From assembly GCF_024436055.1 (NCBI RefSeq), contig NZ_JANFNH010000048.1:1-57476 (forward strand): a stretch of DNA of 57,476 nt, given 5' to 3'. A program made the translations under genes and the position numbers. Origin of the DNA: Streptantibioticus rubrisoli (GTDB lineage Bacteria; Actinomycetota; Actinomycetes; Streptomycetales; Streptomycetaceae). A model generated the notes under the pieces. The model worked only from the letters and a program-made list of their open reading frames with translations, was not told where the DNA came from and did no database searches. Each line of letters begins with the position of its first letter. The first letter of the stretch is position 1. Shown piece by piece: positions 41,063-57,476 of this stretch.

Positions 41063-41435
41063 TCAGTCACTGAGCCGTTCGCCGGTGGAGGTGGAGAGCC
41101 GTTCGCCGGTGGAGGTGGAGAAGACGTGTGTCTCGCCCGCGCGGGGTACGACGTGGAGCACTTGCCTTTCATGGGGACTTGGCGGCCGCCAACGCGGACG
41201 AGGATGCCGGTTGCCGTTCCGCCGATCTCGGCGGTGCCGTAGACGTATCCGTCGGCGCCGAGTTCCTCGACCACGTTGCCGGTGACGGCGGCGCCCGTGG
41301 GTTCGTCCTGGACCAGGGAGGCCGCCTCCCCGTTGGCGATGCCGAAGCGTTCGAGTCGCACCCCGACGGTGACGGTGCGGCCGCCGCCTTCGACGGCGGG
41401 GGTGAGGGCCTCGCGGCTGACCGGGGGCCTAGTCC
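41063..41435 (-). pseudogene. msiK: C-terminal remnant of the ABC-importer ATPase MsiK
   Basis: Only the C-terminal TOBE-like end is left: TVTVGVRLERFGIANGEAA and VVEELGADGYVYG in one frame, then VLHVVPRAGETHVFSTSTG in another, so a frameshift lies near 41160. A 24-bp in-frame tandem duplication then repeats STSTGERL before the stop at 41063. The ATP-binding domain (Walker A, signature, Walker B; about 280 residues) is absent upstream. MsiK energises many sugar importers in Streptomyces (maltose, cellobiose, chitobiose), and I recall it at this spot. A full copy elsewhere is possible. Confidence 0.85.
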
Positions 41436-41580
41436 ACGCACAGCGAACCTCCCGTGACGCTACCCCTCGCTCACCCACTCATCAGCGCCGCAACCCACGT
41501 TTTCCCGCCCGATCTGTGTGGCCCCCCGCCCACCCCTTGGTACCCTTCTCATGGCCCCAGCCACCCAACGCCAGGGCCAA

Positions 41581-41654
41581 GCCTCCTTAGCTCAGCTGGC
41601 CAGAGCACCGCTCTTGTAAAGCGGGGGTCGTCGGTTCGAACCCGACAGGGGGCT
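41581..41654 (+). tRNA. tRNA-Thr (anticodon TGT)
   Basis: A complete 74-nt cloverleaf. Acceptor GCCTCCT pairs with AGGGGGC, discriminator T; anticodon stem CCGCT/AGCGG with loop CTTGTAA, anticodon TGT; T arm GTCGG-TTCGAAC-CCGAC. CCA is not encoded. A strong hairpin follows at 41674-41700. It forms the left boundary of the accessory region. Confidence 0.96.
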
Positions 41655-41673
41655 CGCACAGGATCGACACTTC

Positions 41674-41700
41674 GGCCCGTGACCTTGCTGGTCACGGGCC
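41674..41700. terminator. hairpin downstream of tRNA-Thr
   Basis: GGCCCGTGACC (41674-41684), loop TTGCT, GGTCACGGGCC (41690-41700): 11-bp perfect stem. It also lies inside the reading frame of the recombinase C-terminus on the other strand. Confidence 0.8.
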
Positions 41701-43588
41701 TGTGTGTCTGTTGGTGGATTCCTGCGGCGGCCGCTGTGATTGCTGGCAGCTGGTCGGCGGGCAGCCTGATGCTGATCGTCGCATGGTCGCTGTCCGTGTG
41801 GAGGCGGACGGTCAGCTGGGTGATCTCGTAGAGGCGGCGCTGGAGTGGCTCGGGCGCGTCGGTGAGGTTGAGCACGAGGTAGGGGAGCGCGTCGAGCAGC
41901 TCTGCGGCGTCGGCGGTGGGGCGGGCGGGCTCTGCGGCGTCGGCCTCGTCGAGATCCGCGATCTTCGCCAGAGCGGTTTTCCGCTGCTCCTCCAGCTCGT
42001 TGTAGGTCCGGCGCAGCCCTTGGGCGAACGGGTCGCCCGGCTCGCAGTCCTGGGCCTGGCGCAGGACGTTGGCCTGGCGCCGGTCGAGATCCGTGAGACT
42101 GCGCTGGAGGCGCTCTCGTTCAGCCTCGCGTTCGCGGGTCGCTCGATCGTCCGCTGAGGCGATCTCGGCCGTGAGGAGTTCTCTGCGGTGCGGTCCGAAG
42201 ACCCGGTCGCCGTAGAAGGCGCTGACGGCGTCCAGGAGGGCGGCTTCCCCGATGTAGAGGGTCTTGGGATGCCCGGGGTACGTCTCTGGGCGCCCACGGT
42301 TGTTGCCGCGCGGCCAGCAGACGTAGTACGTGGCGTGATGGCGCTGCTGTCCGTACAACCGGCGTCCGCAGGGGCAGTGCACCATGCCGCGCAGTAGGTA
42401 GGTGCGGCGGGTGGCGGGGTGGGTGTTGGGCTCGTTGCCGTCCCGGGAGCCTCGCTTGGCCTGTCGGCGGGCGTTGAGCTCGTCGAACATCCACTGGGGG
42501 ATCAGCGGCTCGTGCACGAGTTCGGGGGACCAGACCCACAGGGCGGGGTCGTTGTACGCACCGCGGCGTGATCGGGAGGCACGGCGGTTGAAGACCTGGT
42601 AACCGGTGTACTTCGGGTTGCGCAGTATCTCGCACACGGCCGACTTGCCCCACGCCCCGCGGGCTCGCCTTTCGCCAGGCGGCACGGGCGGCGGGTACCG
42701 GTCAGGGTCGGCGTTGAGGCGATCGGCGATCGTGGAGTAGCCGAGGTTCTCGTGGTACCGCCACTGCGCGATCTGCGTCACCGTCTGCGCGTGAAGGCCG
42801 TCGGGCTCCAGGCGAGTCTTGGTGGCGCCGCGTTCGGCCTTCATCGGGTTGGGATGGCGGTAGCGCTTTGAGGTGTAGCCGTACGGGGGCTTGCCGATGT
42901 TCCAACCCTCGCGCACGTGGGTGCACAGGCCGCCCCGAGACAGCTCCAAGGCGTTGAATACCTCGTACTCGGCCACCGATTGGTTGATCCTGCGTTGGAG
43001 GATTTGTTGGGCGCGCCCGCCGTCGAGCTTGATCGGCTCGTTCTGCGAACAGCGGCACACCGGCTCGTTCCAGCTCGCGTTCCACCGAGAGGTTCTCGAA
43101 CATCCGCCGTGCCACGCGGGAGGTGCTCTCGCAAATGACGACGTCGAAGCGGCGGTTGGAGTGTGCGGCCTCGGCCAGCAGGTCGGTGATGCCGCCGTCG
43201 CGGGCGATGGGGATGTCGAACCGCTCGTAGCCGACCTTGCGGCCGCGGGCGTCCAGTTCCATGCGCCCGGACTCGACGTCGTAGAAGTGACAGACGATCG
43301 CCCAGGCTTGGGGGAGCGCGGACTTGCTGCGCTCCAACTGGCGCATCAGCGACTGACGCGGATCCTGCTGGTCCTCGGTCGAGGTGCGCCCGACCCAGGC
43401 GACGCGTACCTCACCGCGCAGCAGGGCCGTGGGCATGCCGAACGGCGACACCGCCAGGTCGGACAAGCCCGATGGGCCTGTGAGTGCAGCCCCGGTTGGC
43501 GTCGTTGGCGCAAGTCGCCCAGCCAAGGTGGGAGCGGGCGGATCCTGCGCCTTTTCGTTTCCGTTGCTCGACGGGTTGTTGGGAGGTG

Positions 43589-43921
43589 TCATGCAGCCTC
43601 GCTGTCGTCGCGACGGTCAGCAGATTCCTCGGCGGTATTCCGGGCTGCTACGACGGCCCAGGCGAGCAGGTCGCGTATCGCGGTCGCCAGTTCGCCCTGT
43701 AGGCGCTGGCCTTCGGCACCGCCGATATACATCACGTGACCGGAGTAGGTCCGGTCACGACCGTGCGTGCTCTTCTGATGGTATCGCCAAAGGGCCTGGT
43801 CAGGGGCGGTGTTCGCAGGGTCCACCGTCTCGTCTTCGGCTTTGTCCTGCGGCGGGGGAGCGGCGTTCTCGTCCTCGTCGCAGCGAGGTTGGTGCTGGGC
43901 GTGGTGGGCGGCAGGGTGCAT
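43589..43921 (-). CDS. small protein coupled to the recombinase, unknown function
   Basis: A 110-residue protein, His/Asp/Glu/Pro-rich in the first half and helical in the second (ELATAIRDLLAWAVVAARNTAEE). Its TGA overlaps the ATG of the recombinase gene (ATGA), so the two are coupled. It might be a recombination directionality factor or accessory protein, but this is only inference from position. The start (ATG 43921) is uncertain; longer in-frame reading upstream exists. Confidence 0.5.
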   Translation of the reverse strand: MHPAAHHAQHQPRCDEDENAAPPPQDKAEDETVDPANTAPDQALWRYHQKSTHGRDRTYSGHVMYIGGAEGQRLQGELATAIRDLLAWAVVAARNTAEESADRRDDSEAA

Positions 43922-44721
43922 GGCGCGGCCTTCAACTCCGCGAGGTCCGGGCGTGAATCCTCGCGGATCGTTGGTCGACAACAGGGCACCCCAAAAGGCC
44001 GGTTTCAGAGCCGCTTTTGGACACGGTGCGACCAAGATCTTGTTCTTACTCGGGACGTTTCGCGGCGCGTGTAGCTCGGCCTTATAGAACAGCACTGCGC
44101 TCACGACCTGCTGCTTTAGGCGGCCTTCAGTAGCGGGCCTCGTGCACAGGCGGTGCGTATGCCGACCACGGTCTCGCTCGGGGCTGGGACGTACAGCCAG
44201 CGGTCGGCACCCAGATCGCTCACAGGGGCGGCACGCCGGGGATTGAGGTCGGTACCCAAACCGACTTGGTCGGTGACTGGACCTCACTTTCGAGACCGAG
44301 TCCTGACCGCTCGCGGACGGCAGTCAGCCGCACGACTGGTGAGGGTCGGTCGTTCCATGAGCCGTGACGAAAGTTCGGTTCACCGCGTCCAAAGTCGGCC
44401 CTGATAGCGGCCTTTGAGAGGGGGAGTGCTGAGCTGCCTTGGAGCTACCCAGCCCCGGAGGTGCACCCGGCGATCGCTTGCCGCCACCCTGGCTGTGCGC
44501 TTGCCTTGCGGCTATCGAGTTGCGGGGCACATGGGAAGGGCCAAGGCGGCCGTGACCAGCGACAAGGCCGCAGAAGGGGGCTACCTCTCTAGGGGGTAAC
44601 CCGGTAGGACCCCCGATCCGTAGCGAGAACGGTAGCCTTGTTGGCAACTACACTGCGTGGTCGAAATGTCGCTGGATGCAAGATCGGGATGCCAGGTACG
44701 TATTCGCTCCAGGCGACGTCC
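43922..44721. other. 800-bp region without a clear gene, with short dyads
   Basis: I see no convincing gene. It holds an inverted repeat CCAAAAG...CTTTTGG (43991-43997 and 44014-44020), a perfect ACCGAC-TTG-GTCGGT palindrome at 44260-44274 with two more GTCGGT copies nearby (44248, 44345), and the low-coding DNA before the phosphotransferase end. Confidence 0.4.
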
Positions 44722-45525
44722 TCAGAGCAATCGGTAGTCACGCCACCGATGAGCGGCCTTGACCATGCGGTTGGTCCACGGGTCGGGATCGGCACCGGCG
44801 ATCTCGTCCCAGATGCGGACGTTGGCCTCGGCGAAGGCGTTCACCCCTTCCTGCGGCGCGCTGCCCCACGAAGGGATCTGCGATGCAACAGTCTCAGCCT
44901 CTTCGGGACTGTGGCCGCCTGCGGCGATGAGCCAGATGACCCAGTATCCGGGATCAAGCCAGGAGGCACCGCGAGTTGCCCAGCCCCAGTCGACGAGATG
45001 GCCCCGGTCTGTGATGAGCACGTTGTGGTTGTTCAGATCGGTGTGGAGCAGGGCGTCGCCCGCGAAGAACTTCAGGATGGCGGGTTCGTCGACGTAGGCG
45101 GACAGACGCTGCTCGGCCCGTCGCAGCGGCACGTCCGGGCATGGAATCTCGCCGAGTTGACGCAGGGCTTGAGCGACCATGGCCAGGTCGGGGGAGTCGG
45201 GCCGATAGTCGGCGTGATGGCCATCGATGGCCTCGAATCCCAGCACGTTCCAGCCGCCGGTCTCGACCTGCCAGAGCAGGTGAGGGGCGAGAGGCACGAC
45301 GTACGGGTTGATGCTGGCTTCCCGTTGCTGGGTCCAGACCCATCGATGGTCGCTCGGCAACCCCTTGAGGAACACGCTGCGGGTCGCTGTATGGACTCGT
45401 GCCGAGAGTGCGCTGTTGAGCCCGGCGCTGATCGCTTCCACTTTGAGGATCGGCCCTGTCTGCGCTTCGACGGCCTCGCGGACGGCTTTCGGCAGGTCGT
45501 CGAAGAGAACGGGTGTGGTTGCCAT
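44722..45525 (-). CDS. APH-fold kinase (aminoglycoside phosphotransferase family)
   Basis: A 267-residue kinase-like protein. The catalytic Brenner motif is LLHTDLNNHNVLI (HxDxxxxN) and the metal Asp is in LVDWGWATRG. The N-terminal lobe has VFLKGLPSD with the ATP-binding Lys. It is last in the five-gene minus-strand operon with the radical SAM gene. In RiPP clusters, related kinase-fold proteins phosphorylate Ser/Thr during dehydration or modify the peptide; resistance or small-molecule phosphorylation is the alternative. ATG 45525 is preceded by GGGAG; an ATG at 45597 would add 24 residues without ribosome site. Confidence 0.85.
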   Translation of the reverse strand: MATTPVLFDDLPKAVREAVEAQTGPILKVEAISAGLNSALSARVHTATRSVFLKGLPSDHRWVWTQQREASINPYVVPLAPHLLWQVETGGWNVLGFEAIDGHHADYRPDSPDLAMVAQALRQLGEIPCPDVPLRRAEQRLSAYVDEPAILKFFAGDALLHTDLNNHNVLITDRGHLVDWGWATRGASWLDPGYWVIWLIAAGGHSPEEAETVASQIPSWGSAPQEGVNAFAEANVRIWDEIAGADPDPWTNRMVKAAHRWRDYRLL

Positions 45526-45554
45526 GATGGCAGGCTCCCAGATAGGGGACGGGC

Positions 45555-45595
45555 GACGGGGCCCTCCGACATGGCCGCTGCCGGAAGACCCCGTC
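45555..45595 (-). terminator. stem-loop between precursor and kinase genes
   Basis: GACGGGG at 45555-45561 pairs with CCCCGTC at 45589-45595, with further partial pairing inside, 9 bp after the precursor stop. RiPP operons often use such an attenuator to make excess precursor; that role is inference. Confidence 0.5.
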
Positions 45596-45603
45596 ATCGA
45601 GGG

Positions 45604-45738
45604 TCAGTTGTACGGGTTGTCGTCGCCGCAGCCGGGCATTGCCGACTCGCCGAATACCTCCAGGTCGTCGAGAAGGACGATCTCCTCGTCGGCTTCGGCA
45701 GGCCGGAGGGGCGCGATCTCGACCATGACTGCTGTCAT
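45604..45738 (-). CDS. putative RiPP precursor peptide, 44 residues
   Basis: A short gene directly after the radical SAM gene (3 bp gap), with AAGGAG 8 nt before ATG 45738. The product has 11 acidic residues and one Arg. Residues 1-33 look like a leader (IVLLDDLEVFGES at 20-32), and the tail MPGCGDDNPYN (34-44) holds the only Cys (C37), the only Tyr (Y43) and two Asn, a plausible core. The size, acidity, tight coupling and position between a SPASM enzyme and a kinase all fit a RiPP precursor. No match to a named RiPP class came to mind. Confidence 0.75.
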   Translation of the reverse strand: MTAVMVEIAPLRPAEADEEIVLLDDLEVFGESAMPGCGDDNPYN

Positions 45739-45741
45739 CGG

Positions 45742-46857
45742 TCAGCTCCTTGTCTCTGAGTGCTGGCAATACCTTTCGAGTGGTGCCTTCGCCTCCTGGT
45801 AGACCTTGGCCAGCGGCCTGCACACCCGGCAGGTGCCGGAGAGCTGGCAGCCGGAGCAGCCACCGGTGCGAAGCATGAGGGAGTCGGCGATGCCACCGAG
45901 GCGGCTCAGCCCTGCGACTCCTTCGGCCATGAGTGGGATCTGCTGGTCGCGGCCGACTTTGCAGATCGAGGCTATGCCGAGTGGATCGACGTGGAAGAAG
46001 GTGTGGCCCGCCGGGCAGCCTTTGAAGATCTCGTTTTTGTTGAGGTAGCCCGGTGCCTGTGCGGCGAGGGTTTCTCCCGTGCCGAAGTAGGTGGGAGAGA
46101 TGTTGGTGTACTCCTTGCTCCGGGCGCCGTAGCGTTCGGCCAGGGCTCGCATCTGGCCGATCTCGTGGGCGTTGTGCTTGGTGACGATCAACGCCAGTTC
46201 CAGCGGGATGCCCGCCTCGCGGGCGGCATCCATGCCCCGTGTCACCAGCCTGAAAGCGCCTTTGCGCTGGGTCAGGGAGTCGAAGCTGTCCGCTGTGGCG
46301 CCGTAGACGGAGACCGTGACCTTGCCGGGGCGTTGACGCAGGAGCAGGTCGAGCACCTTCGGGTGCGCAAGGCGTGATCCGTTGGTGAGGATTTCGACCA
46401 CCATGCCCAGCTCGAAGGCAAGGGCGTACGCGTCGGGGAAGTGTTTGTCGATCATTGGCTCGCCGCCGGTGAGCTGCAGCCAGAGCACTCCCGCATCCCG
46501 CAGGATGTGCAGCAGCCGGACCTTGTCGTCCCAAGCCAGGCCCTGGAACTCCTTGAGGCCCAAGTAACAATGCTCGCACGCGAAGTTGCAGCCCTTGTTG
46601 ATCTCGTACGAGGCGCGGCCGTAGCCGTACTGGGAAGGTGCGCGGACGAGGATGGTGCAGGATGCGGGCCTGCGATTCAGATCCAGGTTCCAGGCGCGGC
46701 GGCTGGGCTCGACAAGCCATGTCGGGCAGTCCTTGTCCGTCTCGGCGGCTTGCTTGAGCTCCAGGTACCTCAGATACGGAATCTTCAGCCCGGAAGGGCT
46801 TCCTGGCCGGACCACGATGTACGTGTTGAGGAAGGGGCTGGCGATGAGCTCATACAC
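45742..46857 (-). CDS. radical SAM/SPASM peptide-modifying enzyme
   Basis: A 371-residue radical SAM protein. The 4Fe-4S site is C90-x3-C94-x2-C97 in NKGCNFACEHCYLG; LTGGEPMIDKHF is the SAM-binding GGE segment, followed by EILTNGSRL. The C-terminus carries a SPASM/twitch-type Cys set (GCPAGHTFF, ICKVG, GGCSGCQLSGTCRVC, YCQHSE) for auxiliary clusters, as in RiPP maturases. Residues 1-80 are an extra N-terminal domain that may be a peptide-recognition element. The GTG at 46857 overlaps the upstream gene by 8 bp, and the precursor gene follows after 3 bp. Confidence 0.92.
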   Translation of the reverse strand: MYELIASPFLNTYIVVRPGSPSGLKIPYLRYLELKQAAETDKDCPTWLVEPSRRAWNLDLNRRPASCTILVRAPSQYGYGRASYEINKGCNFACEHCYLGLKEFQGLAWDDKVRLLHILRDAGVLWLQLTGGEPMIDKHFPDAYALAFELGMVVEILTNGSRLAHPKVLDLLLRQRPGKVTVSVYGATADSFDSLTQRKGAFRLVTRGMDAAREAGIPLELALIVTKHNAHEIGQMRALAERYGARSKEYTNISPTYFGTGETLAAQAPGYLNKNEIFKGCPAGHTFFHVDPLGIASICKVGRDQQIPLMAEGVAGLSRLGGIADSLMLRTGGCSGCQLSGTCRVCRPLAKVYQEAKAPLERYCQHSETRS

Positions 46858-47362
46858 GGGGGTCTCCCAGGTCCTCGGAGATCACATTGCTACGGATGAC
46901 TTGAGCCGCACCGAAGTACAGGCGGCGCTCCGCGACCGCACGATCGAGATAACGCTCGATGTCGGGCATCTCGGAAGCGCGCTGGAGTGGGTCGAGGCCG
47001 ACGATCACGGTGGCGCGCGCACGCTGCCCCACCAGACGCTTCCACCCTGGGCTCGTTGGGAGTTGGAGGCCGTAACGCATGCCGTCGGCCCGGAGCACGA
47101 CCCGCCGCAGGGAGTCGATCGTGAGGCGCGGCCTGAGGCAAGGCGCCTGGACGCCGTCTTCTCTCATGCCGAGCGCCGAGGCGAAGTCACGCATGCGTCG
47201 CTCGACGCTACGGCCGGTCTCCTCCGCACTGCGTACGGGCGCGTGTGCCACCAAGACCATTCCGACGGGTTCCGCGGCCGGATCGAGAATCGCCCAGGTG
47301 AACACACTCAATGAGGCCAGCAGCGCAAGCGATACGTAGGTGTCACTCGGCCGGGTCAGCAT
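46850..47362 (-). CDS. single-pass membrane-associated protein in the radical SAM operon
   Basis: A 170-residue protein with one hydrophobic helix near the N-terminus (DTYVSLALLASLSVFTWAIL) and a mixed alpha/beta soluble part containing VGMVLVAHAPVRSAEETGRS and RATVIVGLDPLQRASE. I do not recognise the family. It overlaps both neighbours (7 bp with the ATPase gene, 8 bp with the radical SAM gene), so it belongs to the operon. It could be a membrane anchor, protease or transport component, but nothing in the sequence decides. Confidence 0.6.
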   Translation of the reverse strand: MLTRPSDTYVSLALLASLSVFTWAILDPAAEPVGMVLVAHAPVRSAEETGRSVERRMRDFASALGMREDGVQAPCLRPRLTIDSLRRVVLRADGMRYGLQLPTSPGWKRLVGQRARATVIVGLDPLQRASEMPDIERYLDRAVAERRLYFGAAQVIRSNVISEDLGDPRV

Positions 47363-47880
47363 GCGGCCCCCACCGCATGTTCCGTGACGGAGGTGTGGAG
47401 TTTGAACTCCGCCCATACGACCTTGCCGTCTGCCTGCTCATCAACGCCCCAGGCATCGGCCATCGCACTGACGAGCAAGAGCCCCCGTCCGGAGGTGCCC
47501 TCGCATCGGGAGGCCCGGCGCACAGGCCGTCCTGGCGCGTTGTCCTCCACCTCCACGCGCAGCCACTGCAAAGAAGCGACGACGCGGAGTGTGAAGCCGT
47601 GGGTCGAGGACACGCCGTGGACAAGGGCGTTGGTAGCCAACTCGCTGACGCACAGGCGGATGTCGTCGAACCCCTTTGTTATGCCCCACCGCGTGAGGAG
47701 AGCAGACACGAAGGTCCGGGCATCGGCTACTGCTGTCAGGTCCCTGGTGAAGGACCGCTCGGCGCATGCGAGCAACCCTTCGCTGTGCACATGAAGTTCC
47801 GTCATCATCGTCCGCACCGCATCCCCCATTGAGAAGCCGGTGGCTACTCGAAGGTCTCCAGTCGTCTCTCCCGCGTGCAC
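47356..47880 (-). CDS. histidine-kinase-like ATPase (RsbW/anti-sigma type)
   Basis: A 174-residue protein with an HATPase_c_2 domain: the N-box is LCVSELATNALVHG and the G-boxes are VEDNAPGRPVRR and GTSGRGLLLVSAMADAWGV. Streptomyces has dozens of these anti-sigma-like Ser/Thr kinases, commonly beside Xre-type regulators. It opens the radical SAM operon and may tie its expression to a regulator such as the divergent Xre-TPR protein. Start at ATG 47880, 145 bp from that gene. Confidence 0.85.
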   Translation of the reverse strand: MHAGETTGDLRVATGFSMGDAVRTMMTELHVHSEGLLACAERSFTRDLTAVADARTFVSALLTRWGITKGFDDIRLCVSELATNALVHGVSSTHGFTLRVVASLQWLRVEVEDNAPGRPVRRASRCEGTSGRGLLLVSAMADAWGVDEQADGKVVWAEFKLHTSVTEHAVGAAC

Positions 47881-47948
47881 GCCGCTGGGCGTTTCGCGAG
47901 CGAGATGAGCCTCGCTCGGGGGAAGGGCTGTGAAGAAGGTCCACGTGA

Positions 47949-47965
47949 TTACCCAACCTGGGTAA
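47949..47965. promoter_or_regulatory. perfect palindrome in the divergent promoter
   Basis: TTACCCA (47949-47955), spacer ACC, TGGGTAA (47959-47965): a perfect 7-bp inverted repeat in the 145 bp between the ATPase and Xre genes, AT-richer than its surroundings. It is a likely binding site for the Xre regulator. Confidence 0.65.
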
Positions 47966-48025
47966 CCTTGCGGAGCGTTGAGAGTAGAGAACGCAGTGTC
48001 AGGAACCCTCGCGGAAGGGGATCCG

Positions 48026-49345
48026 ATGACGGCCGGCTCCGAGGCACCTCACGAGTTGCCCATCGCTCTCCTAGGAGATCCGGAGATGGTGCGGGCCTGC
48101 CGAACCCGTGACTTCTCGGCGATCTTCCACCTGGTGCGGCGGCGGTCAGGCATCTACCCCTCCCGGATCGCCGCTCTGTGCGGGATGACGCCCAGCCGGG
48201 TCGGCGAAATCATGAACGGACAGCGCAGGCTGGCCCACATCGACGTCATCGAACGGGTCGCCGACGGACTCCGCATCCCTGGCGCCATGCTCGGTCTCGC
48301 TCACCGCCCCTGGGAGATCCCGCCCCGAGCTGTGGTTGCCGAACCCGAGCCCCCTGCCGCTGATCGTGCGGAGCACGCCCCCACGACCCACGAAGATCGT
48401 TCAGCACGCCTCGACGACATCCTGTCCTTTGTCGACGAGGACCGCGTCACCCGTTCCACCCTCGTCGCGATTCAGTCCGCCATTGAGGACTACTGGCGAC
48501 GGGACGACCAGCACGGTGGCGCGCCACTGCGCCCAGCCGTCGTCGGCCAGCTACGTCATGTTCTCCGGCTCGTCGACACGACTGCTGAAGGTGAACTCAA
48601 ACGCGGCCTCCAGTCCCTGGCCGCCGAGTTGGCGCGACTTGCAGGCTGGTCCTATTTTGACGCCCGTCAGTACAGCACCGCACGGTCCTACTTCACCCAG
48701 GCCCTGCACCTGGCCCAGGAGACCGGGGACCGACAGTTCACCGCCAACGTCCTGTCCTGCATGAGCCTGCAGACTACGTATGAGGGCGACGCCAGCGAAG
48801 CCGTCTCCCTTGCCTGTGCCGCCCAGGACGCTGCTCGCGACACCGCCCCTGCAGCACTGGTGATGTCGATGCTCCACATGCGAGAGGCATTTGCACACGC
48901 CTCACTGCGCGATGCGGTCGCGTGTCACAGAGCCGTCGCCACGGCCCACAGTCACTTCGAGAGGTCCACGAGCCAGGGGCAGCCGCCCACTTGGGTGCGC
49001 TACTTCGACGAGACCAAGCTCGTGGTCGACACCGGCATCGCCCTCGCCCAGCTCGGCGAGGCCCGCCGAGCCGAGCCTCTGATCGCAGAAGGTCTACGTC
49101 GAGAGAAGGGTACCCAGCAGCGCGGTCGCGCCTTCCACGCCTTCTGGCTCGCAACAACGCAGTTCCAGCAGGGATCGCTCGACCAGGCATGCGGCACCGC
49201 TGGCGTTGCCCTGGACCTGGCAACCAGTGTCGACTCACCCCGAGTGGCGGGCCACGTCCGCGAGTTCCACGCGCGGCTGCAGCCGTATGCCCGCGAGACT
49301 CCGGTAATTGCCTTCGAGGCACGGATGCGTGAGGCCTTCTCCTAA
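48026..49345 (+). CDS. Xre-type regulator with TPR-like domain
   Basis: A 439-residue regulator. Residues about 25-85 contain a helix-turn-helix (SRIAALCGMTPSRVGEIMNG); 115-439 is an all-helical repeat region (FDARQYSTARSYFTQALHLA, LAQETGDRQFTANVLSCMS) like the TPR part of signal-peptide-sensing regulators (RRNPP-like). Streptomyces uses this layout next to RiPP and ATPase genes. I use ATG 48026 with AAGGGG 6 nt upstream; a TTG at 47978 would add 16 residues. It overlaps the convergent Nudix gene by 4 bp. Confidence 0.85.
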   Translation: MTAGSEAPHELPIALLGDPEMVRACRTRDFSAIFHLVRRRSGIYPSRIAALCGMTPSRVGEIMNGQRRLAHIDVIERVADGLRIPGAMLGLAHRPWEIPPRAVVAEPEPPAADRAEHAPTTHEDRSARLDDILSFVDEDRVTRSTLVAIQSAIEDYWRRDDQHGGAPLRPAVVGQLRHVLRLVDTTAEGELKRGLQSLAAELARLAGWSYFDARQYSTARSYFTQALHLAQETGDRQFTANVLSCMSLQTTYEGDASEAVSLACAAQDAARDTAPAALVMSMLHMREAFAHASLRDAVACHRAVATAHSHFERSTSQGQPPTWVRYFDETKLVVDTGIALAQLGEARRAEPLIAEGLRREKGTQQRGRAFHAFWLATTQFQQGSLDQACGTAGVALDLATSVDSPRVAGHVREFHARLQPYARETPVIAFEARMREAFS

Positions 49346-49878
49346 CGTGCCGTCGCCTCGTCCAGCAGCAGGTACAGCAGCCCGATGAGCGACCCGCTGC
49401 TGACGATCTCCCGCCGATCGATCATCCCGCGGATATCTGCCAGCGGGATCCACTCGATCCGGTCCGACTCGTTGACCTCGGTCGGCGGCCCCACGTACAC
49501 GCCCGCATCGGCACGGAAGACGAAGTGCTCGGAGTCCGTAATGCCGTTGGCGGGCTGCCCATAGACCAGCGGCTTGACGCCCTTCACCCGCCAGCCGGTC
49601 TCCTCCTCGACCTCGCGGACCGCCGCCTGCTCCGGAGTCTCGCCCTCCTCGATGAGTCCCATGGGCAACTCCCAGGCCCAGGTGTCCGTGACGAACCGAT
49701 GCCGCCACATCATCAACACCCGCTTCTCGTCATCCACCACGGCCGCAACGGCCAAGTGCCGCATCCGCACGACATGGTGCTCCCAACGCCGCCCATCAGG
49801 CTGCTGGACATCGACCAACCAGAGGTTGACCCAAGGGTTGCTGTAGATCTGCCGCTCACCGTGGATCTCCCACTGCAT
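49342..49878 (-). CDS. Nudix hydrolase (ADP-ribose pyrophosphatase type)
   Basis: A 178-residue Nudix protein. The Nudix box G-x5-E-x7-REUXEEXGU is GLIEEGETPEQAAVREVEEE followed by TGW, all key Glu intact. N-terminal sequence EIHGERQIYSNPWVNLWLVD is typical of the ADP-ribose pyrophosphatase group, which hydrolyses NDP-sugars or ADP-ribose. Xre-TPR plus Nudix pairs occur in many Streptomyces. A link to the RiPP operon is uncertain. Confidence 0.9.
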   Translation of the reverse strand: MQWEIHGERQIYSNPWVNLWLVDVQQPDGRRWEHHVVRMRHLAVAAVVDDEKRVLMMWRHRFVTDTWAWELPMGLIEEGETPEQAAVREVEEETGWRVKGVKPLVYGQPANGITDSEHFVFRADAGVYVGPPTEVNESDRIEWIPLADIRGMIDRREIVSSGSLIGLLYLLLDEATAR

Positions 49879-49949
49879 CTGTCCAGTCCCTCTCGCCGCG
49901 AGGCATCCAGGATGTCAGGTCGCCACGGTAGCGCCCCAGTGCTTGTCTA

Positions 49950-49994
49950 GTCCCAGGTGATGTTTGACGTTCTGGTCCCAGTTCATGCTTGACG
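49950..49994. mobile_element. insertion-sequence end remnant with terminal repeats
   Basis: Two direct 20-bp units, read on the minus strand as CGTCAAGCATGAACTGGGAC (49975-49994) and CGTCAAACATCACCTGGGAC (49950-49969), spaced 25 bp, resemble the repeated ends of IS21/IS481-type elements. The next 100 bp (49995-50090) reads in one minus frame like a transposase tail (GQVRVIQRTTDIPVRHVKA). No full transposase is present. The rest of 49879-50443 holds no gene that I can support. Confidence 0.5.
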
Positions 49995-50443
49995 GTGGGC
50001 CTAGACGACATCGGAGATCTTGCGGGGTCGCCTTCACGTGACGGACGGGGATGTCTGTGGTGCGCTGGATGACGCGGACCTGGCCGTTCCCCCGGGCCGA
50101 CGCTCCTGTCTTCGCCCCGCTCCGTCCCGGCGGCCGTCTGTCCCGCGCGCGGCGAACGGCAGCAGCCGCTTGCCGTTAGAGAGGCGTACGTCGTGGCTGG
50201 GGCGGTCGGCTCTGCGGCTTTACCCACCTCCCCGGACCGGAACCCGCGTCGAGCAAGGCCAGGGGGGCAATAGGGCACAAACGTGGGCAGGCCAAGGCTG
50301 CCCGATTGGCTGGCCAGCGTAAGGCCCCCTGACCATGCTCGACCCCAGTCCGGGCAGGCCACCGGCCAAAGCCGCTCCGCCGCCCTACCTGCATCTCGGA
50401 CCGGCTAATGTGACCTTCCTCATATGGAAAGCTGGGGGGTCAG

Positions 50444-50911
50444 GTGGCTCTCAAAACGATCACCGAAGTAGTTACAGCCTTCTCTCCTGCGATCGTGGCT
50501 GTGATCACCGGCGTCTTCACCATGCGATGGCGGCGACGATCCGACAAAATCATGGCGCGCCTAACAGCGGAGATCGAAACCCTGGGCAAGATCCCCGACG
50601 ACCTGATCGCCAATCAACTGATGAGCGAACGGCTCGATGCAAGTGCCCAGAAGTACGCCGAGGCCTGCGCCTTTGAGGACACGCTCCATCGCGAACCTGC
50701 ATCGATCGTCTTAGGCATTCTCTTGGCGGTGGGCGGCATCGGCCTGGGACTGTGGAACGGGGCACACAAGGACTCCTCGACCTGGTGGCTGATTGTGGCC
50801 CTCTTCATGGCCGTCATGGGGATCTTCGGGGCCACCTACGAAGCGGCCGGAGGTAAGAGCCGAGATGCCGCCCGATCCACGAGCGGGGGCACCGGACAAG
50901 CCACCCAGTGA
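50444..50911 (+). CDS. three-helix membrane protein with a TTA codon
   Basis: A 155-residue protein with helices at about 8-27, 86-104 and 113-131 (IVAVITGVFTM, IVLGILLAVGGIGLGLW, WWLIVALFMAVMGIFG) and a helical soluble part between (SERLDASAQKYAEACAFE). I do not recognise the family. Leu90 is encoded by TTA (50711-50713), so translation would need the bldA tRNA in Streptomyces. The GTG start at 50444 follows GGGGGG. It stands alone. The 330 bp after it (50912-51241) contains nothing that I recognise. Confidence 0.6.
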   Translation: MALKTITEVVTAFSPAIVAVITGVFTMRWRRRSDKIMARLTAEIETLGKIPDDLIANQLMSERLDASAQKYAEACAFEDTLHREPASIVLGILLAVGGIGLGLWNGAHKDSSTWWLIVALFMAVMGIFGATYEAAGGKSRDAARSTSGGTGQATQ

Positions 50912-51241
50912 CGTGCTACGCGCGTTCCGTTTCGGTCTTCGTCTCATTCGCTGCCGTTCGGCCTCGTCCAGGACCGTACGACCGCAGGGTCAGCAGCCCG
51001 CGGTGGACATCGTTGAACGGGTGCGGATCCCCACCCCACCGGCCCGGTCAAGGACCCCCGGTGGGGGTGCATCGACCCTTCGGGCCGTTACCGGCAGTGC
51101 CGCGCCCGGTCGGCACCCGCGCCGTGGCGCCATCGCTTTTCGGCGCACCGCCGTACCCGCGCTGTGACACCGCCGTTTGGCGCTTCGCGCCGCGCGGAGA
51201 CCGCCCTCACCTGTACCAACAGACTTGGGAAGCGAGCGGTT

Positions 51242-51919
51242 TCAGCTTCTGTGGTGCTGAACATCGGTGATCTTGTCCACTCGGAACTTTGGAACGGTCA
51301 ACTCGCCACCCATGGTTGTGCTGTAGGTGTAGGTACCCAACACCGTGACGTACGCGGTGAAGGTGTCGTTCTGGAGCAGGCTGCCGATGACAGACGGGTC
51401 GCCGACCATCACCGTGTTGGCCTGATAGTCCGATACATAAGTGCAGCCGTCGCAACCAGTGTCGTGGTAGGTCGCGGAAGTATTGGCGCGGAACCCGCCG
51501 TTTCCGGTGCTGGAGTCGTACTGCATGACCTGGCCGTAGATGACGTGCTGCTCGCCAACGTGGGGATTCGCATCGCGCGTGAGTTGGGCGAAGTCCACAT
51601 CAGTAAGAGTCTTGTATGCGGATGTGTCCGCCGGGGCCGGGACAGGGGGACTGGGCGCCGTAGAAGCCGAGAAGTCGGTTCCGGACGATGGATCGGACGG
51701 TTGCGCTGCAGTGGTAGGCGGCGCAGCGGCTGCCGGTGCGGCGTGACCGATGCCGCGCGGCGTGAGGTAGCCAGCGCCGTATCCGATGCCCAGGCATATG
51801 GCGCCTATCGCAATGACGACGGCGAATCGGAAGCGGGGGACGCGGTGGTTGCGGGCGATCGTCGTCTCCGGCTCTCCCGCGAGCGGGGCCGCCAAGGTGG
51901 GCTCGACCTCATCTGTCAT
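51242..51919 (-). CDS. membrane-anchored protein with an extracellular OB-like domain
   Basis: A 225-residue protein: cytoplasmic N-terminus, one helix (about 31-50, FAVVIAIGAICLGIGYGAGY), an Ala/Pro/Ser/Thr-rich linker (55-100) and a beta-rich domain containing HVIYGQVMQYDSSTG, two Cys (GCDGCTYV) and TFTAYVTVLGTYTY. The layout resembles Streptomyces membrane proteins of unknown function. ATG 51919 follows GAGGAG and lies inside the end of the upstream gene (11 bp overlap), so the pair is an operon. Confidence 0.7.
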   Translation of the reverse strand: MTDEVEPTLAAPLAGEPETTIARNHRVPRFRFAVVIAIGAICLGIGYGAGYLTPRGIGHAAPAAAAPPTTAAQPSDPSSGTDFSASTAPSPPVPAPADTSAYKTLTDVDFAQLTRDANPHVGEQHVIYGQVMQYDSSTGNGGFRANTSATYHDTGCDGCTYVSDYQANTVMVGDPSVIGSLLQNDTFTAYVTVLGTYTYSTTMGGELTVPKFRVDKITDVQHHRS

Positions 51920-52673
51920 GCTGTCGCTCCTCGCGGGGCCGGATGGACTCTTTGTCCTCTTGCGCCGGGTGAGCTGCACTCGCTGCACGGCTGCTACATG
52001 GTTCCGACGCTGCGTCAACTCGACCGTTCAGGTAGAAGAGGAGCCATTCGAGCCGGTCCGCCGAGACTCCCAGGCGCCTGGCCCAGCCGTGCATGGTGCT
52101 TACGTACGTGGCGTACCGGGTGGGCCAACGACGCGTGCCGGCTGCCTTCCGGCTGTACCAGCCCAGGGCAATCAGGGACCGGAAGACCCGGGCATCGAGG
52201 ATCAGGGCCCGCTCGCACTCGGAGTCGCGTGGGTCGACCGCGGCGAACCACTTGGTGAAGAAGGATCGCCCTACCCCGTTGAGTGTGAACTGGCTGTACG
52301 CGCTGCTCAGTTCTCCGGCTTGAACGGACTTCCGCGTCGTTTCGAGGACTTGAGTCATGCGGCTGTCGGACAGGGCACGGCAGGTGTAGCGCGGGCCGTG
52401 CCCGTTGCTGGTGCCCGAGCCCCAGATCATGACGGCGACGAACAGATCCCGTAGGCCGTCAGGATTGCCGTCGGCGCGCACCCGTAGTGTGGCCAGGTCG
52501 TCCCGAGTGATGAGGCGGTCGCCTCGTGGCCCGATGGAGCATTCGGTGCCAAGGCTCAGGACGCGCGCAGCGCCGTGCGGCTCCAGCCAGGGGCGCCAGG
52601 TCTTCGGGCGTAAGCGCACCGGCTTCTGCCTGCATTCGCCGTAACGGACAACCAGTCGTTGCAGCTGTTCCAT
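51909..52673 (-). CDS. OGG-fold-like protein (8-oxoguanine glycosylase-like), tentative
   Basis: A 254-residue protein. FVAVMIWGSGTSNGHGPRYT and WGWARRLGV-type segments (YVSTMHGWARRLGVSADRLE) match, as I recall, a group annotated as 8-oxoguanine DNA glycosylase OGG-fold proteins. It shows no clear HhH-GPD catalytic Lys/Asp pattern, so enzymatic function is doubtful. It starts at ATG 52673 and overlaps the next gene by 11 bp. Confidence 0.5.
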   Translation of the reverse strand: MEQLQRLVVRYGECRQKPVRLRPKTWRPWLEPHGAARVLSLGTECSIGPRGDRLITRDDLATLRVRADGNPDGLRDLFVAVMIWGSGTSNGHGPRYTCRALSDSRMTQVLETTRKSVQAGELSSAYSQFTLNGVGRSFFTKWFAAVDPRDSECERALILDARVFRSLIALGWYSRKAAGTRRWPTRYATYVSTMHGWARRLGVSADRLEWLLFYLNGRVDAASEPCSSRAASAAHPAQEDKESIRPREERQHDR

Positions 52674-52917
52674 GAGGCGCCCCCTATGCCGGTCACGTCG
52701 GCCTGCCGTCGTGCGGCAGCGTATGGGGCGGCACGGAGGGAAGCGGACGAGTCGCCGTAATCGAAACCGAGCCGTCACCAGCCGCAGCACCCTGTCCGGA
52801 GGCCCCCGCTCTGGGCCGTCCCCGGGCCGTGCACCGTGGCTCAACGCCGACGACCGTCGACAGCTCCCCCGCAGACCAGAGCGCTGCCGACCCACGACCG
52901 CCCAGCTCGCAGTACCG

Positions 52918-52980
52918 GCGCTCAAGACTCAGGGCAAGAAGAAGTAACACGCCGCGAGAAGGCCCCCGATCAGCGGTTCC
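52918..52980 (+). repeat. look-alike of the gpmA 3' end
   Basis: The bases around 52921-52947 translate as KTQGKKK and stop, and match the gpmA tail (25535-25559, KNQGKKK and stop), with further similarity downstream (GGCCCCCGA and GCGGTT). The rest of gpmA is absent. It looks like a scar of recombination or integration at the 3' end of a gpmA gene. Confidence 0.5.
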
Positions 52981-53140
52981 TCCTGTTCGGGCCGTTCCGC
53001 CACGCCGGGAGACCGACCTCGTACAGCCAGCCGTCGCGCAGCTGGCGCGGGGATGACAGGTGTGCGACGACCTCCTGGTCCCCGTGCAGCAGCACCCGGA
53101 TGGGCACCTGCACCAGCTCGGGGGCGGAGGACGTCGTCAT
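52970..53140 (-). CDS. small protein, unknown function
   Basis: A 56-residue ORF with normal codon use; the product contains VPIRVLLHGDQEVVAHLSSP and GWLYEVGLPAWR. It resembles small proteins carried by Streptomyces mobile elements, but I do not know a function. The end is unusually basic (NRRNR) and lies inside the gpmA-like scar, so the true C-terminus may be lost. GGGAGG is only 1-2 nt before ATG 53140, which weakens the call. Confidence 0.4.
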   Translation of the reverse strand: MTTSSAPELVQVPIRVLLHGDQEVVAHLSSPRQLRDGWLYEVGLPAWRNGPNRRNR

Positions 53141-53711
53141 GCCTCCCACCGCCGTGAAGCGGAGCTACGCGAAGCCGCCCGGATGTCCCAGACGACGTCG
53201 ACGGGCGGCCGCGCGGCGGCGAGCACAGCGTCTCGATGGGCTCTGCGGCCCAAAGCGGGGCGGCTGGCTCCCAGACTCACGGAGGGAGTTGGCCGGCGGC
53301 CAATGTGGGTGCGTCTGGCGTCAGCCGCACCGCCCATTCGTTCATCCTGGCCAGGCGCCGACCGCGGTGATCGAACTTGTAAAGCCGTGATCACCTCGTG
53401 GAGTTGGGCTTCAGCGGGGGTTCGTCGCCCTGACGGCGCCGCCGTGGTACTTCAACCGTTGCTGAAACCACCAGCTCACGCAGCCTTCTCTGCCGTGTCG
53501 ATGCTGTCCGACCCTCCCAGGGGGCTCAGAGAGGCCGCAGGTCAGGGCCTGCACGGGTACGAGGAAGGCCCTCCGTGAAGATCGCGGAGGGCCTTTTCGT
53601 GCCCGATGGGAACGCGCTGGGAACATGCCGCGGGGCCAGCAGAGGTTCGTGCGCTGGTGACCCTGCCTACGGATTCGTCCCTCTGAACCACCAGTGGAAG
53701 CTGGGCAACAG
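53141..53711. other. 570-bp gene-poor stretch with candidate right end of the element
   Basis: No gene is convincing here. At 53506-53527 a segment matches the tRNA-Thr 3' end at 17 of 22 positions, including the exact CAGGGGGCTC (53518-53527), which is also tRNA 41646-41655. A terminator follows at 53565-53597. This could be an attR. Confidence 0.35.
53565..53597 (+). terminator. rho-independent terminator
   Basis: AAGGCCCTCCG (53565-53575) pairs with CGGAGGGCCTT (53585-53595), 9-nt loop, then TTTT continuing in the plus direction. No plus-strand gene lies just upstream, which would fit an old tRNA terminator moved by integration. Confidence 0.8.
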
Positions 53712-54608
53712 CTACTCGTGCCCCGCCCATTTCAGCGTGTTCTGCCCACCGTTGTCCCAGTTGACGACCACGCTGTCACCGGAGCGGGTCAAGGTCGCGG
53801 CCTGGTAGTCGCTCTCCTTGTCGCTGCCCATGGGCTTGAGGGCTATGCGGAAGGAGCCGTCGCTGCGGTCCATACCGATGCCGAGGAGGATGCCGTTACT
53901 GTCTCCGGGATTGAGGAAGTTGACTGAGTAGTCGCCCTTGGCCTGCCCCGAGGTGTACTTGCTGCCGATGGTGAGGGTTTTGCCGCTCGCGTCCTGCCAC
54001 TGCCCCTCGAACCCCGTCGCGGGTGGCGGGGTCGCGTAGCCGTCGGTGGGGTCGTCGGTCGGGCTCTCGCCCGTGCCGTCGGTGGCGCTCACGCTCGGCT
54101 GAACCGACGACGATTGCGTCGCCTGCGCCGACGGGCTCTTGTCGGCCACGGGCTTGGGGCCGCCACCACCGCTCGTCGCGAGGTACACCCCACCGGCGAC
54201 GAGCACCACTGCCGCGACGGCGGAACCAGCGATGACGGCGAGTCGCCGCTTCCCGGCACTACCGCCTTCGGGAGGCTGCGGGTAGAGCGATCCGAACGGG
54301 GGCGATCCGAACTGGGGCGATCCGAACTGGGGCGGCCCGTACGAAGGCGCGGACGGAGACCCGTACTGGGGGCCGCCCTGAGGGCCGTACGGCGGCTGCG
54401 CCGGGTACGGGGGCTGACCGCCGTACGGGCCAGGGCCCTGCGGGGTGGCCGAGACACCTGGTGTCGCATACGGGTTGGGCTGCCCAACTGGTCCCTGTGC
54501 CGGAGGCGGCGCGTACGGCCCCGGAGCGGCGCCTGTATCCGCCGGTGGCTGCTGCGGGGTTCCGTATCCGTGACCATCCTGCTGAGGCTGCCCGGACGGG
54601 TACGTCAT
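53712..54608 (-). CDS. membrane protein with Pro/Gly/Tyr-rich N-terminus, DUF-type
   Basis: A 298-residue protein. Residues 1-120 are low-complexity (Pro, Gly, Tyr, Gln; repeated GSPQFGSPPFGS units), 122-143 form one membrane helix (LAVIAGSAVAAVVLVAGGVYL), a Ser/Thr/Pro linker follows, and 200-298 is a beta-rich extracellular domain with FEGQWQDASGKTLTIGSKY. It is read from ATG 54608. Function unknown. No ribosome site is unusual. Confidence 0.7.
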   Translation of the reverse strand: MTYPSGQPQQDGHGYGTPQQPPADTGAAPGPYAPPPAQGPVGQPNPYATPGVSATPQGPGPYGGQPPYPAQPPYGPQGGPQYGSPSAPSYGPPQFGSPQFGSPPFGSLYPQPPEGGSAGKRRLAVIAGSAVAAVVLVAGGVYLATSGGGGPKPVADKSPSAQATQSSSVQPSVSATDGTGESPTDDPTDGYATPPPATGFEGQWQDASGKTLTIGSKYTSGQAKGDYSVNFLNPGDSNGILLGIGMDRSDGSFRIALKPMGSDKESDYQAATLTRSGDSVVVNWDNGGQNTLKWAGHE

Positions 54609-55027
54609 GGGTGTGGGATCTCCTTGTCGGGTCCGGAGCAGGTGGCACCGCCCGGCCCCCCGCCCACCCCCAAAGATTCACTCAACGCGTCACCGTAACA
54701 AGTGGGTTTCCGGCCCGGCCGAGCTCCGCTACGACGGCGAACCAGCGCCAACGGCATCGTGAACCGCGAGTCACCCAGCTTGACGGAAGGGGTGGGTGCT
54801 AGGCACGCACTCGCCGTTCCCGCGATGTCTCCCTGCCCCAGCATGTGGACGTTCTTGAGGTCAGAGGCACATACACACGGGTGCGCCCCGGCTCAGCCTG
54901 GCCACCTGCGGCGTCACACCGGCCAACTGGACTCAGCCCTAATGGAGTTGACGGCGGACCCCCGGGACGCTCCCGCCTTCGGCGCCGCTGTCCAGCACTT
55001 CAGCAATGGACGGCAAGGCGCCGTGCA
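54609..55027. other. 419-bp region without a gene
   Basis: Intergenic between the membrane protein and the frameshifted deacetylase. It shows no coding signal that I trust and no hairpin stronger than background. Confidence 0.35.
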
Positions 55028-55833
55028 CTACGTGTTGAGGAGGCTGCGCAGGTCGGCGATTTCGTAGCCGTGGGCGCGGAGGGTGTCGATCAGCTGTGGC
55101 AGGGCGTCAGCGCCGAGGACCGTGTTCTGGCCGTCGGAGCCCACGTGCATCCGATGATCTCGCCCGGGCGCAGCGCGTCCATGGCGCGCTGGATGACTTT
55201 CCGTACGGTCATCCTGCCTTTCGGGGCGAGGTAGCCGTTGGTATCGGTGGTCCATTCGATGTCGGCGAAGCCAAGGGCGTTGACTTCCGTGATCTGCTGG
55301 GGGTTGGTTTCGCCGTAGGGGAAGCGGAAGAACGGCAGCGGTGCGGTGCCGGTGGCGGTACGGATGGCGTGGTCGGCTCGCAGGACCTCGGCCGCGCCTT
55401 GGGCGGGTCGCAGTGCTTGGAAGTGCGGGTGGCTGTAGGAGTGGTTGCCGATTCCGTATCCGGCCTTCGCGATCGCGCGTGCGGCGGCCGGGTGACGGTC
55501 GGCGAAGTCACCGGTGAGGAAGAAAGTGGCCGGGACGTGGTACCGGCGCAGCACGCGCAGCACGGTGTCGAGGCCCTCAACGTCCCAGGCGGCGTTGAAC
55601 GTTAGCGCCACCACGCGCTGTCGCGTGGGCATCGTACGGTTCTCGGATCCGTACAAGGCCCGCAACCGGTCGGTGCGAAGGGGGCGTTCGATAGCTGTGT
55701 GCACCGTCCGAGTGCCCGCATGGTCGCGTCCGGCGATGGCTGTCGGTGCCGTGCCGAGCACCGTCATCGCTGAGGCGACGACGGCCACCACGCTGCCCAG
55801 GATCCTGTGAGCTGCTCGTGGGGAAGGAGTCAC
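55028..55833 (-). pseudogene. polysaccharide deacetylase (NodB), frameshifted near the end
   Basis: A secreted NodB-domain protein: signal peptide (1-34), then ALTFNAAWDVEGLD, GNHSYSHPHF and FFRFPYGETNPQQI. Motif 1 reads TFNAAW where active enzymes have TFDDG, so the catalytic base is an Asn. The frame changes near 55154: the first frame ends ALRPGEIIG and then reads out of frame, while HVGSDGQNTVLGADALPQL and LRAHGYEIADLRSLLN continue in another frame to 55028. A single base loss explains it. Confidence 0.75.
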
Positions 55834-55928
55834 GCCCGCACGCTAACGGTGGCCACGGCGGACAGAGGTGGGCCCTCGAACGGGTTACGTGGGTGAGAAC
55901 GACTGTGACGGTGCGCCATGCTGGCCTG

Positions 55929-56402: not shown

Positions 56403-56507
56403 CACGCCGCAAGGTTCGAGCGGTGTGTTCGGTCAGGCCATGAGCACAGTGCACAACCAAGGGAAGAACGTCGAAACCATCTCAACGATGCAGTCCTCAG
56501 GCCCTAG

Positions 56508-57359: not shown

Positions 57360-57476
57360 CCACCGAAGCGTGCCGCACACGCATGCACGACCCGGAGCCA
57401 ATGCCCGCATCGATTCCTTGATACTGGGGATCGCGGCGGCGCGGTGGCGCCTGGGGAATGCCCCGGGCGCCACCGC

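Follow-up and report, generated by a model that had tools for sequence, protein, structure and literature searches.

We describe a gene cassette in a contig of Streptantibioticus rubrisoli (NZ_JANFNH010000048.1, 57,476 nucleotides; the window hereafter, meaning this whole stretch), which encodes a radical S-adenosylmethionine (SAM) enzyme, a 44-residue peptide and an APH-fold kinase. The kinase is coupled to a Tyr near the C-terminus of the peptide, and in other loci it is exchanged for a GNAT acetyltransferase, the Tyr then being replaced in all cases but one. On balance, we think that the cassette probably represents an unnamed family of radical SAM ribosomally synthesized and post-translationally modified peptides (RiPPs), in which the kinase would phosphorylate the near-C-terminal Tyr and the GNAT would replace the kinase elsewhere. 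An earlier note on this DNA had read the operon as RiPP-like, and this reading is supported by the linkage of peptide and enzyme and by the conserved homologues of the peptide.

A conserved peptide linked to the enzyme

The window peptide begins with MTAVMVEI and ends with MPGCGDDNPYN; its 44 residues include one Cys and one Tyr, as the earlier note had described. Two observations were named there as speaking against a RiPP, namely orthologous enzymes lacking the peptide and a peptide lacking conserved homologues. Neither was seen. Counting duplicates and broken copies, 190 of 193 loci have the peptide behind the enzyme: 172 of 173 in the main set (duplicates included), and 18 of 20 in a set of added loci (3 full-length and 17 partial enzyme matches, counted in the 193 and not in the 141 non-redundant loci discussed below). 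The misses are one sequence end (L266, which stops 37 bases past the enzyme) and two damaged loci: the peptide of L289 is truncated at its end, ahead of the GNAT gene, and in L295 the peptide was lost with the end of the enzyme. In both damaged loci the GNAT frame stays open despite the loss of the peptide. Homologues of the peptide occur in Streptomycetaceae, Micromonosporaceae (Virgisporangium, Dactylosporangium) and Nonomuraea. The ratio of non-synonymous to synonymous substitution rates (dN/dS) had a median of 0.32, with all values below 1 (211 pairs, not independent). With this ratio and 190 of 193 loci, the linkage of the peptide to the enzyme is not due to chance. The cassette thus has what is generally expected of a RiPP, in that a short precursor gene, conserved as a protein, sits with an enzyme that modifies peptides.

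The C-terminus of the peptide follows the pattern [D/E/N]-[D/S/A/N]-[N/Q, once A]-P-X. Among 126 non-redundant loci, Pro is present in all 126, an invariance that is partly by construction because the search pattern required Pro near the end; peptides failing this pattern were read by eye (including L070 and L211). The residue before Pro is Asn in 95 loci or Gln in 31, and position -3 is Asp in 112, Asn in 8 and Glu in 6. Peptides have one Cys in 53 loci, two in 71 and three in 2. In 45 of the 88 kinase-type peptides of this set, the core counted from the first Cys is without Ser or Thr, so that Tyr is the sole hydroxyl side chain there.

Exchange of kinase and acetyltransferase, and coupling to Tyr

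The peptide is followed by a kinase or GNAT gene in 170 of the 172 peptide-bearing loci of the main set. We grouped loci into clusters at 97% identity, none of them mixed, which gave 141 non-redundant loci. Of these, 95 are kinase loci, and in every one of them Tyr follows the Pro; four also carry a small gene, F33. GNAT loci number 44, with His in 32, Phe in 6, Asn in 5 and Tyr in 1 (L210), and the 2 loci with neither gene both have Phe. The GNAT family was assigned by Pfam (Acetyltransf_1, 2.1e-7 for one member). Four loci were typed by inspection (three with kinase and Tyr, one with GNAT and His), and seven were left out before the count (L070, L086, L016, L056, L274, L266 and L267), all of which except L266 fit the coupling. 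The 20 added loci comprise 13 with a kinase, all with Tyr (one of them, L298, badly broken), 5 with a GNAT, all with His, and 2 with a GNAT and the peptide end lost. Kinase and Tyr are therefore coupled, and the kinase and the GNAT exchange for one another.

We mapped both traits on a quick tree of the enzyme, with branch support from the Shimodaira-Hasegawa-like approximate likelihood-ratio test (SH-aLRT) only. Kinase and Tyr change 4 times each, and the trait pair 5 times; leaving out L209 and L210 brings each count to 3, which means that three changes are shared. L209 (NPF) and L210 (NPY), both with a GNAT, are sisters, and their starred clade also holds four kinase/Tyr loci. These two loci may be an intermediate, in which the exchange precedes the loss of Tyr and Tyr drifts afterwards. 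In the clade with F33, L111 and L055 (GCG[N/E]DNPF) have F33 and no kinase, and L051, L155, L159 and L171 (GCGNDNPY), in the same starred clade, have both kinase and F33. F33 itself encodes about 150-170 residues and, in one clade, comes after the cassette whether the kinase is there or not; Pfam gave no match for its member in L055. Since switches are few, the argument for coupling draws on the contrast between a Tyr that is invariant where the kinase is present and one that changes where it is absent, together with the few switches that are shared.

Shared descent has to be considered here. The kinase could act elsewhere, on a small molecule, on Ser or Thr of the leader or on another protein, and its link with Tyr would then be a by-product. 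Labels are indeed strongly clustered on the tree (a kinase-only label over 91 rows changes 4 times, against a shuffled mean of 41.4), and Ser or Thr is present in 43 of the 88 kinase-type cores as well. We consider this explanation unlikely, given the three tree changes shared by kinase and Tyr, the presence of Tyr in 95 of 95 loci with the kinase against His, Phe or Asn in 45 of the 46 that lack it, and the contrast of L111 and L055 with their sisters, from which they diverge in kinase and Tyr alike although the operon type is shared.

A kinase dedicated to the cassette

The APH-fold kinase claimed in the earlier note is clear by fold, despite a Pfam APH match of 0.016 that lies under the cut-off for the window member (it is over the cut-off for L081). 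The model (predicted local distance difference test, pLDDT, 96.8) matches APH kinases, choline kinase and corramycin phosphotransferase with Z up to 17.5 (Foldseek, VIA). Against 8agy, the corramycin phosphotransferase solved with corramycin, it gave Z 17.3 over 239 residues, with a root-mean-square deviation (rmsd) of 3.1. Across 42 sequences, K54, E69, H161, N168, D179 and W180 are invariant and D163 is conserved in at least 90%. Both the fold and the catalytic residues are thus those of APH enzymes.

The kinase is dedicated to the cassette. A profile search of 40 genomes (up to 64 candidates scored per genome) found the close kinase subfamily (scores of at least 370 bits) only next to the radical SAM gene, in all 10 Tyr-type genomes tested; the other 30 genomes reached at most 292.3 bits. 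The five GNAT-type genomes tested, G014, G168, G263, G391 and G246, and also G079, had no score above 91 bits.

APH and acetyltransferase enzymes inactivate aminoglycosides, and corramycin is a peptide antibiotic. The kinase or acetyltransferase might likewise confer self-immunity, inactivating a toxic modified peptide in its producer; the substrate could still be the Tyr. The alternation in one place of the two usual self-resistance chemistries agrees with this, as do the corramycin phosphotransferase among the top solved matches and the patchy occurrence of the enzyme gene, on plasmids and phages. The core, unlike many weapons, varies little between bacterial families, and L111 and L055 have neither a kinase nor an acetyltransferase. 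In addition, no dedicated exporter recurs beside the cassette among the neighbour families, by which we mean those found in at least 4 of 82 loci, one representative of each being scanned with Pfam. We regard self-immunity as a real possibility, short of being probable.

The radical SAM enzyme

The enzyme has a Pfam radical SAM match (4.4e-15) and the CxxxCxxC motif. Cys 90, 94 and 97 and Cys 281, 299, 334, 337, 343, 346 and 364 are invariant in 61 sequences, so that it carries both CxxxCxxC and the SPASM cysteines of a maturase; the SPASM reading rests on Cys spacing, because Pfam reported no SPASM match. The closest solved structures to its model (pLDDT 86.6) are SkfB (Z 23.0, 314 residues, rmsd 5.4), BlsE and SuiB. 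Residues 4-56 of the model form strands followed by helices, the alignments with SkfB and SuiB start at residues 1-3, and no PqqD or RRE profile matched. As modelled, this N-terminal domain fits a RiPP recognition element (RRE). None of the best 25 of 48 NCBIfam matches of the enzyme reaches its cut-off. The values in bits, against the cut-off, are 70.7 against 265 for mycofactocin MftC, 55 against 381 for PqqE, 63.5 against 625 for StsB, 47.2 against 300 for SkfB and 44.6 against 850 for AlbA. This agrees with the earlier note, whose author could name no class that the operon matches.

The mycofactocin and PqqE models in this list, although far under their cut-offs, raise the idea that a small cofactor akin to mycofactocin or pyrroloquinoline quinone (PQQ) is derived from the peptide, whose C-terminus would be excised and remade. 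Such a role would suit a C-terminus that is very conserved and lies at or near Tyr in 88 of the 126 loci. We nevertheless find it highly improbable, since Tyr is replaceable by His, Asn or Phe, the gene is patchy and sometimes phage-borne, and no cofactor-pathway peptidase or oxidoreductase was seen among the neighbour families (several of them without a Pfam match). The layout of RRE-like, radical SAM and SPASM parts, with SkfB as best match, and the conserved Cys and Asp of the core could also be those of a sactipeptide or ranthipeptide of the usual kind, with a resistance gene nearby that has nothing to do with it. This is very doubtful in our view: the NCBIfam sactipeptide models are far under cut-off, and a kinase or GNAT that accompanies nearly every peptide and is coupled to one of its residues is not a passenger.

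A sister system with a radical SAM enzyme and APH

A radical SAM enzyme and an APH protein are a recurring pair. Among eight neighbourhoods of distant APH proteins, three (L224, L225 and L226) had the APH adjoining another radical SAM protein, which has a Cys-Pro-rich tail (pairs at L224:4694-6361, L225:3941-5654 and L226:4121-5740). In this sister family APH is next door in 13 of 33 loci (10 places, 9 sequences), all of these with tails like C-x-P-G-[Y/T/F]-P...C-x-P-[R/K]; the remaining 20 showed no APH, L242 having only 127 bases downstream. The sister system resembles the cassette in that its radical SAM gene adjoins the gene of a related APH. It differs in that no separate peptide gene was seen and the tail ...C-x-P-G-[YTF]-P... 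belongs to the enzyme, which may be a self-modifying or fused-precursor enzyme.

A member of the sister family with a long Cys-Pro tail is also present in the genome of the window (L240; contig 82, 53935-54720), with no APH seen within 1.4 kb downstream. A small Cys-containing family (about 100-125 residues; L067, L107 (F8) and L224:6767-7138) lies upstream of both systems and looks shared by eye.

Proposed mechanism

We propose that the radical SAM enzyme would bind the leader of the peptide, probably through its RRE-like N-terminal domain, and would modify the C-terminal core C-x(1 or 3)-[D/E/N]-D-[N/Q]-P-Y. The modification would most likely be a thioether tying the invariant Cys to the Asp, Glu or Asn two or four residues on. 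The APH-fold kinase would then phosphorylate the core Tyr, either to complete the product or to keep it from harming the producer. In other lineages a GNAT stands where the kinase would be, and the position of Tyr, which the kinase would no longer hold, usually has His, Phe or Asn. There are precedents for phosphorylation and acylation: a passage of PMC9266682 describes PadeK as phosphorylating the C-terminal Ser of a lasso precursor, a site that is conserved in the company of a homologous kinase gene, and one in PMC10373908 describes GNAT acylation in other RiPPs.

Several points weigh against this proposal. The Tyr of L210 stands with a GNAT, so Tyr does not require the kinase. Starred branches of the tree gave 3 independent pairs, 2 as predicted and 1 not differing, and with 3 pairs a sign test cannot reach 0.05. 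Solved APH-fold enzymes mostly act on small molecules, and the sister tail has Tyr, Thr or Phe, so that the APH there is not tied to Tyr. The thioether is drawn from residue conservation and analogy only. Finally, the neighbour families (several of them without a Pfam match) include no protease to account for cleavage, and transporters that could explain export are scattered, with an ABC ATPase in 7 of 82 loci (about 5 kb off, on either strand) and an MFS protein in 4.

If this proposal is correct, the cassette would be a common, as yet unnamed radical SAM RiPP family, with its enzyme gene in about 18% of sampled Streptomycetaceae genomes. It would also provide a testable case of enzyme exchange tied to one substrate residue, and an APH-fold enzyme that phosphorylates a peptide tyrosine.

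Distribution and mobility of the cassette

Radical SAM matches at E<=1e-60, partial ones included, were found in 73 of 394 Streptomycetaceae genomes sampled, and in 71 of 392 genomes of one large genus. A phylum-wide sample had the enzyme in 6 of 396 genomes at E<=1e-40, all Streptomycetaceae. Within Streptantibioticus (three genomes compared) we found one other partial match; the genome of the window has no second copy, only a distant radical SAM protein. Among the matches listed, the enzyme is also present in Virgisporangium, Dactylosporangium, Actinoplanes and Nonomuraea.

Some copies are mobile. Several Streptomyces plasmids carry the enzyme gene, as do at least 12 IMG/VR viral contigs (L208-L219, of which L213-L215 and L218 look alike); the scans of IMG/VR and of the contig collections were pattern-limited, and their counts are lower bounds. 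The isolated Streptomyces phage Success has enzyme, peptide and kinase together at one genome end (L222, NC_073472.1 1-10380). There, gp03 (annotated "oxidoreductase") is the enzyme, gp02 ("hypothetical protein") is the peptide, ending ITPGCGDDNPYN, and gp01 ("kinase") is the APH (E 4.3e-120). Since the complete three-gene version is on an isolated S. lividans phage, the chemistry and purpose should be easy to test. The earlier note had proposed looking for co-occurrence in other Streptomyces, and the three genes do recur there, and in phage Success. An XRE gene of the DUF5753-type group lies near the cassette of phage Success.

An integrase or recombinase was near the enzyme in 6 of 126 loci (four query proteins), and among the 82 loci there were two phage-integrase families (6 loci and 4 loci) and a relaxase family (5 loci); with so few loci, mobility is established for some copies only. 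In the window, a recombinase-like gene (41549-43592, two overlapping frames, apparently broken) lies downstream of the kinase and adjoins a tRNA-Thr(TGT) (41581-41655), which makes an old integration site at this place possible. A search of positions 41400-57476 for the borders of a mobile element yielded no direct repeat of at least 22 bases.

Among the open-licence papers listed by our searches, judged by titles and starts of abstracts, we found no description of the cassette. In PHROGs, the radical SAM part matched distant radical SAM families only. PADLOC matched this part to prokaryotic viperin models (53.3 bits, no cut-off given), and gave no match of the kinase, peptide or HATPase to known defence models. 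We did not adopt a role in anti-phage defence, for which these viperin-model matches are the sole PADLOC support.

Organization of the operon and neighbouring genes

The five minus-strand genes of the earlier note are each present (Table 1), the HATPase_c_2 protein with a Pfam match of 1.2e-14. At the three upstream junctions, the HATPase and 170-residue protein genes overlap by 7 nucleotides, the latter and the radical SAM gene overlap by 8, and the peptide starts 3 nucleotides past the radical SAM stop. The kinase starts 78 nucleotides past the peptide. The kinase start is better placed at 45525 (267 residues), matching homologues, than at 45597 (291 residues). For the HATPase, 47829 may be the start in place of 47880, and the true start of the NsdA-family regulator is probably inside its TTG open reading frame.

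Table 1. Features of the operon and its surroundings (positions in the window)
Feature	Position	Strand	Basis
44-residue candidate precursor peptide, MTAVMVEIAPLRPAEADEEIVLLDDLEVFGESAMPGCGDDNPYN	45604..45738	-	Homologue behind radical SAM gene in 190/193 loci; median dN/dS 0.32
Conserved C-terminal core CGDDNPYN, residues 37-44	45607..45630	-	Column counts, 126 loci
Codon of Tyr43, proposed phospho-acceptor	45610..45612	-	Tyr in 95/95 non-redundant kinase loci, 1/46 others
Radical SAM-SPASM enzyme with RRE-like N-terminal domain, 371 residues	45742..46857	-	Pfam, invariant Cys, model, structural matches
APH-fold kinase, 267 residues	44722..45525	-	Invariant catalytic residues, model, structural matches
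170-residue protein, one hydrophobic segment, accessory passenger	46850..47362	-	Pfam scan, tblastn
HATPase_c_2 (anti-sigma type ATPase), frequent neighbour	47356..47829	-	Pfam; 53/117 loci
NsdA-family XRE-TPR regulator, divergent	47978..49345	+	NF053720, 333.5 bits (cut-off 75)
NUDIX hydrolase adjoining the regulator	49342..49878	-	Pfam; within 4.5 kb upstream in 34/117 loci

The constant core consists of three genes and not five: the radical SAM enzyme, the peptide, and the kinase (or acetyltransferase). The 170-residue protein, the membrane protein of the earlier note, has one hydrophobic N-terminal stretch and is accessory and not part of the operon core. The Pfam scan gave it no family match worth naming, and relatives at E < 1e-10 were found only in L004 and L098 (one locus) and in L078 (tblastn, 81 other loci). 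The HATPase gene is upstream in 53 of 117 loci, those with at least 4.9 kb of upstream sequence, and is thus frequent and not constant. The earlier note had counted both as parts of the RiPP system; we see instead a common neighbour and a rare passenger.

An NsdA-type regulator lies within about 4.5 kb upstream in 72 of the 117 loci (74 of 77 matches divergent), and some XRE regulator of three searched groups in 100; one of these groups combines an HTH with DUF5753 by Pfam. The genome of the window (7.26 Mb, the window being its contig 47) has 14 NsdA-family genes and 62 HATPase_c_2 matches over the cut-offs, which correspond to chances of about 1% and about 4% per such stretch, a rough yardstick that comes from one genome and from profiles differing from those of the 117-locus survey. 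The association of regulator and HATPase with the cassette looks real, and the NUDIX hydrolase is probably a partner of the regulator and not of the peptide. The neighbour families include regulators, NUDIX, integrases, a relaxase, a transposase, a methyltransferase, an OLD-like ATPase, a sigma factor, a Ni-superoxide dismutase and a DUF6879 protein.

RRNPP-type TPR receptors sense peptides. By analogy, the tyrosine-phosphorylated (or, in the variant, acetylated) radical SAM product could conceivably act as an intracellular signal, sometimes phage- or plasmid-borne, that is sensed by the divergent XRE-TPR regulator (NsdA-family or similar); we offer this as a speculation that has little chance of being right.

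Comparison with known systems

The cassette resembles ranthipeptide and sactipeptide systems (freyrasin, NxxcA, SkfB, CteB) in having a radical SAM enzyme beside a short Cys peptide; its RRE-like domain and SPASM-type cysteines may correspond to the RRE and the SPASM or twitch domain of their enzymes. As described in a section of PMC8326336, thioethers link Cys to Asp in freyrasin and to Asn in NxxcA. Unlike in these systems, one or two Cys, or in 2 of 126 loci three, lie near the C-terminus of the peptide of the cassette, followed by [DEN]-D-[NQ]-P-Y, and there is a dedicated kinase or acetyltransferase; the best 25 curated models of its enzyme are under cut-off.

The kinases of kintamdin and of class V lanthipeptides are APH-like, and the cassette is like these systems in having a predicted phosphotransferase acting on a RiPP core. 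In kintamdin, KinD with the lyase KinC phosphorylates and eliminates Ser, according to a passage of PMC10373908. Kintamdin and class V kinases work with a lyase, whereas Pfam found no lyase match in the operon of the cassette, and about half of the kinase-type cores have neither Ser nor Thr.

A parallel to the coupling exists in paeninodin (PadeK/ThcoK), in which, as a part of PMC9266682 describes, a kinase gene is paired with a conserved C-terminal hydroxyl residue of the precursor. No lasso cyclase or protease genes were seen in the operon or in the neighbour-family representatives of the cassette. In paeninodin the residue is a Ser and the lasso is made by B and C proteins, whereas the cassette combines a Tyr with a radical SAM enzyme and an APH-fold kinase.

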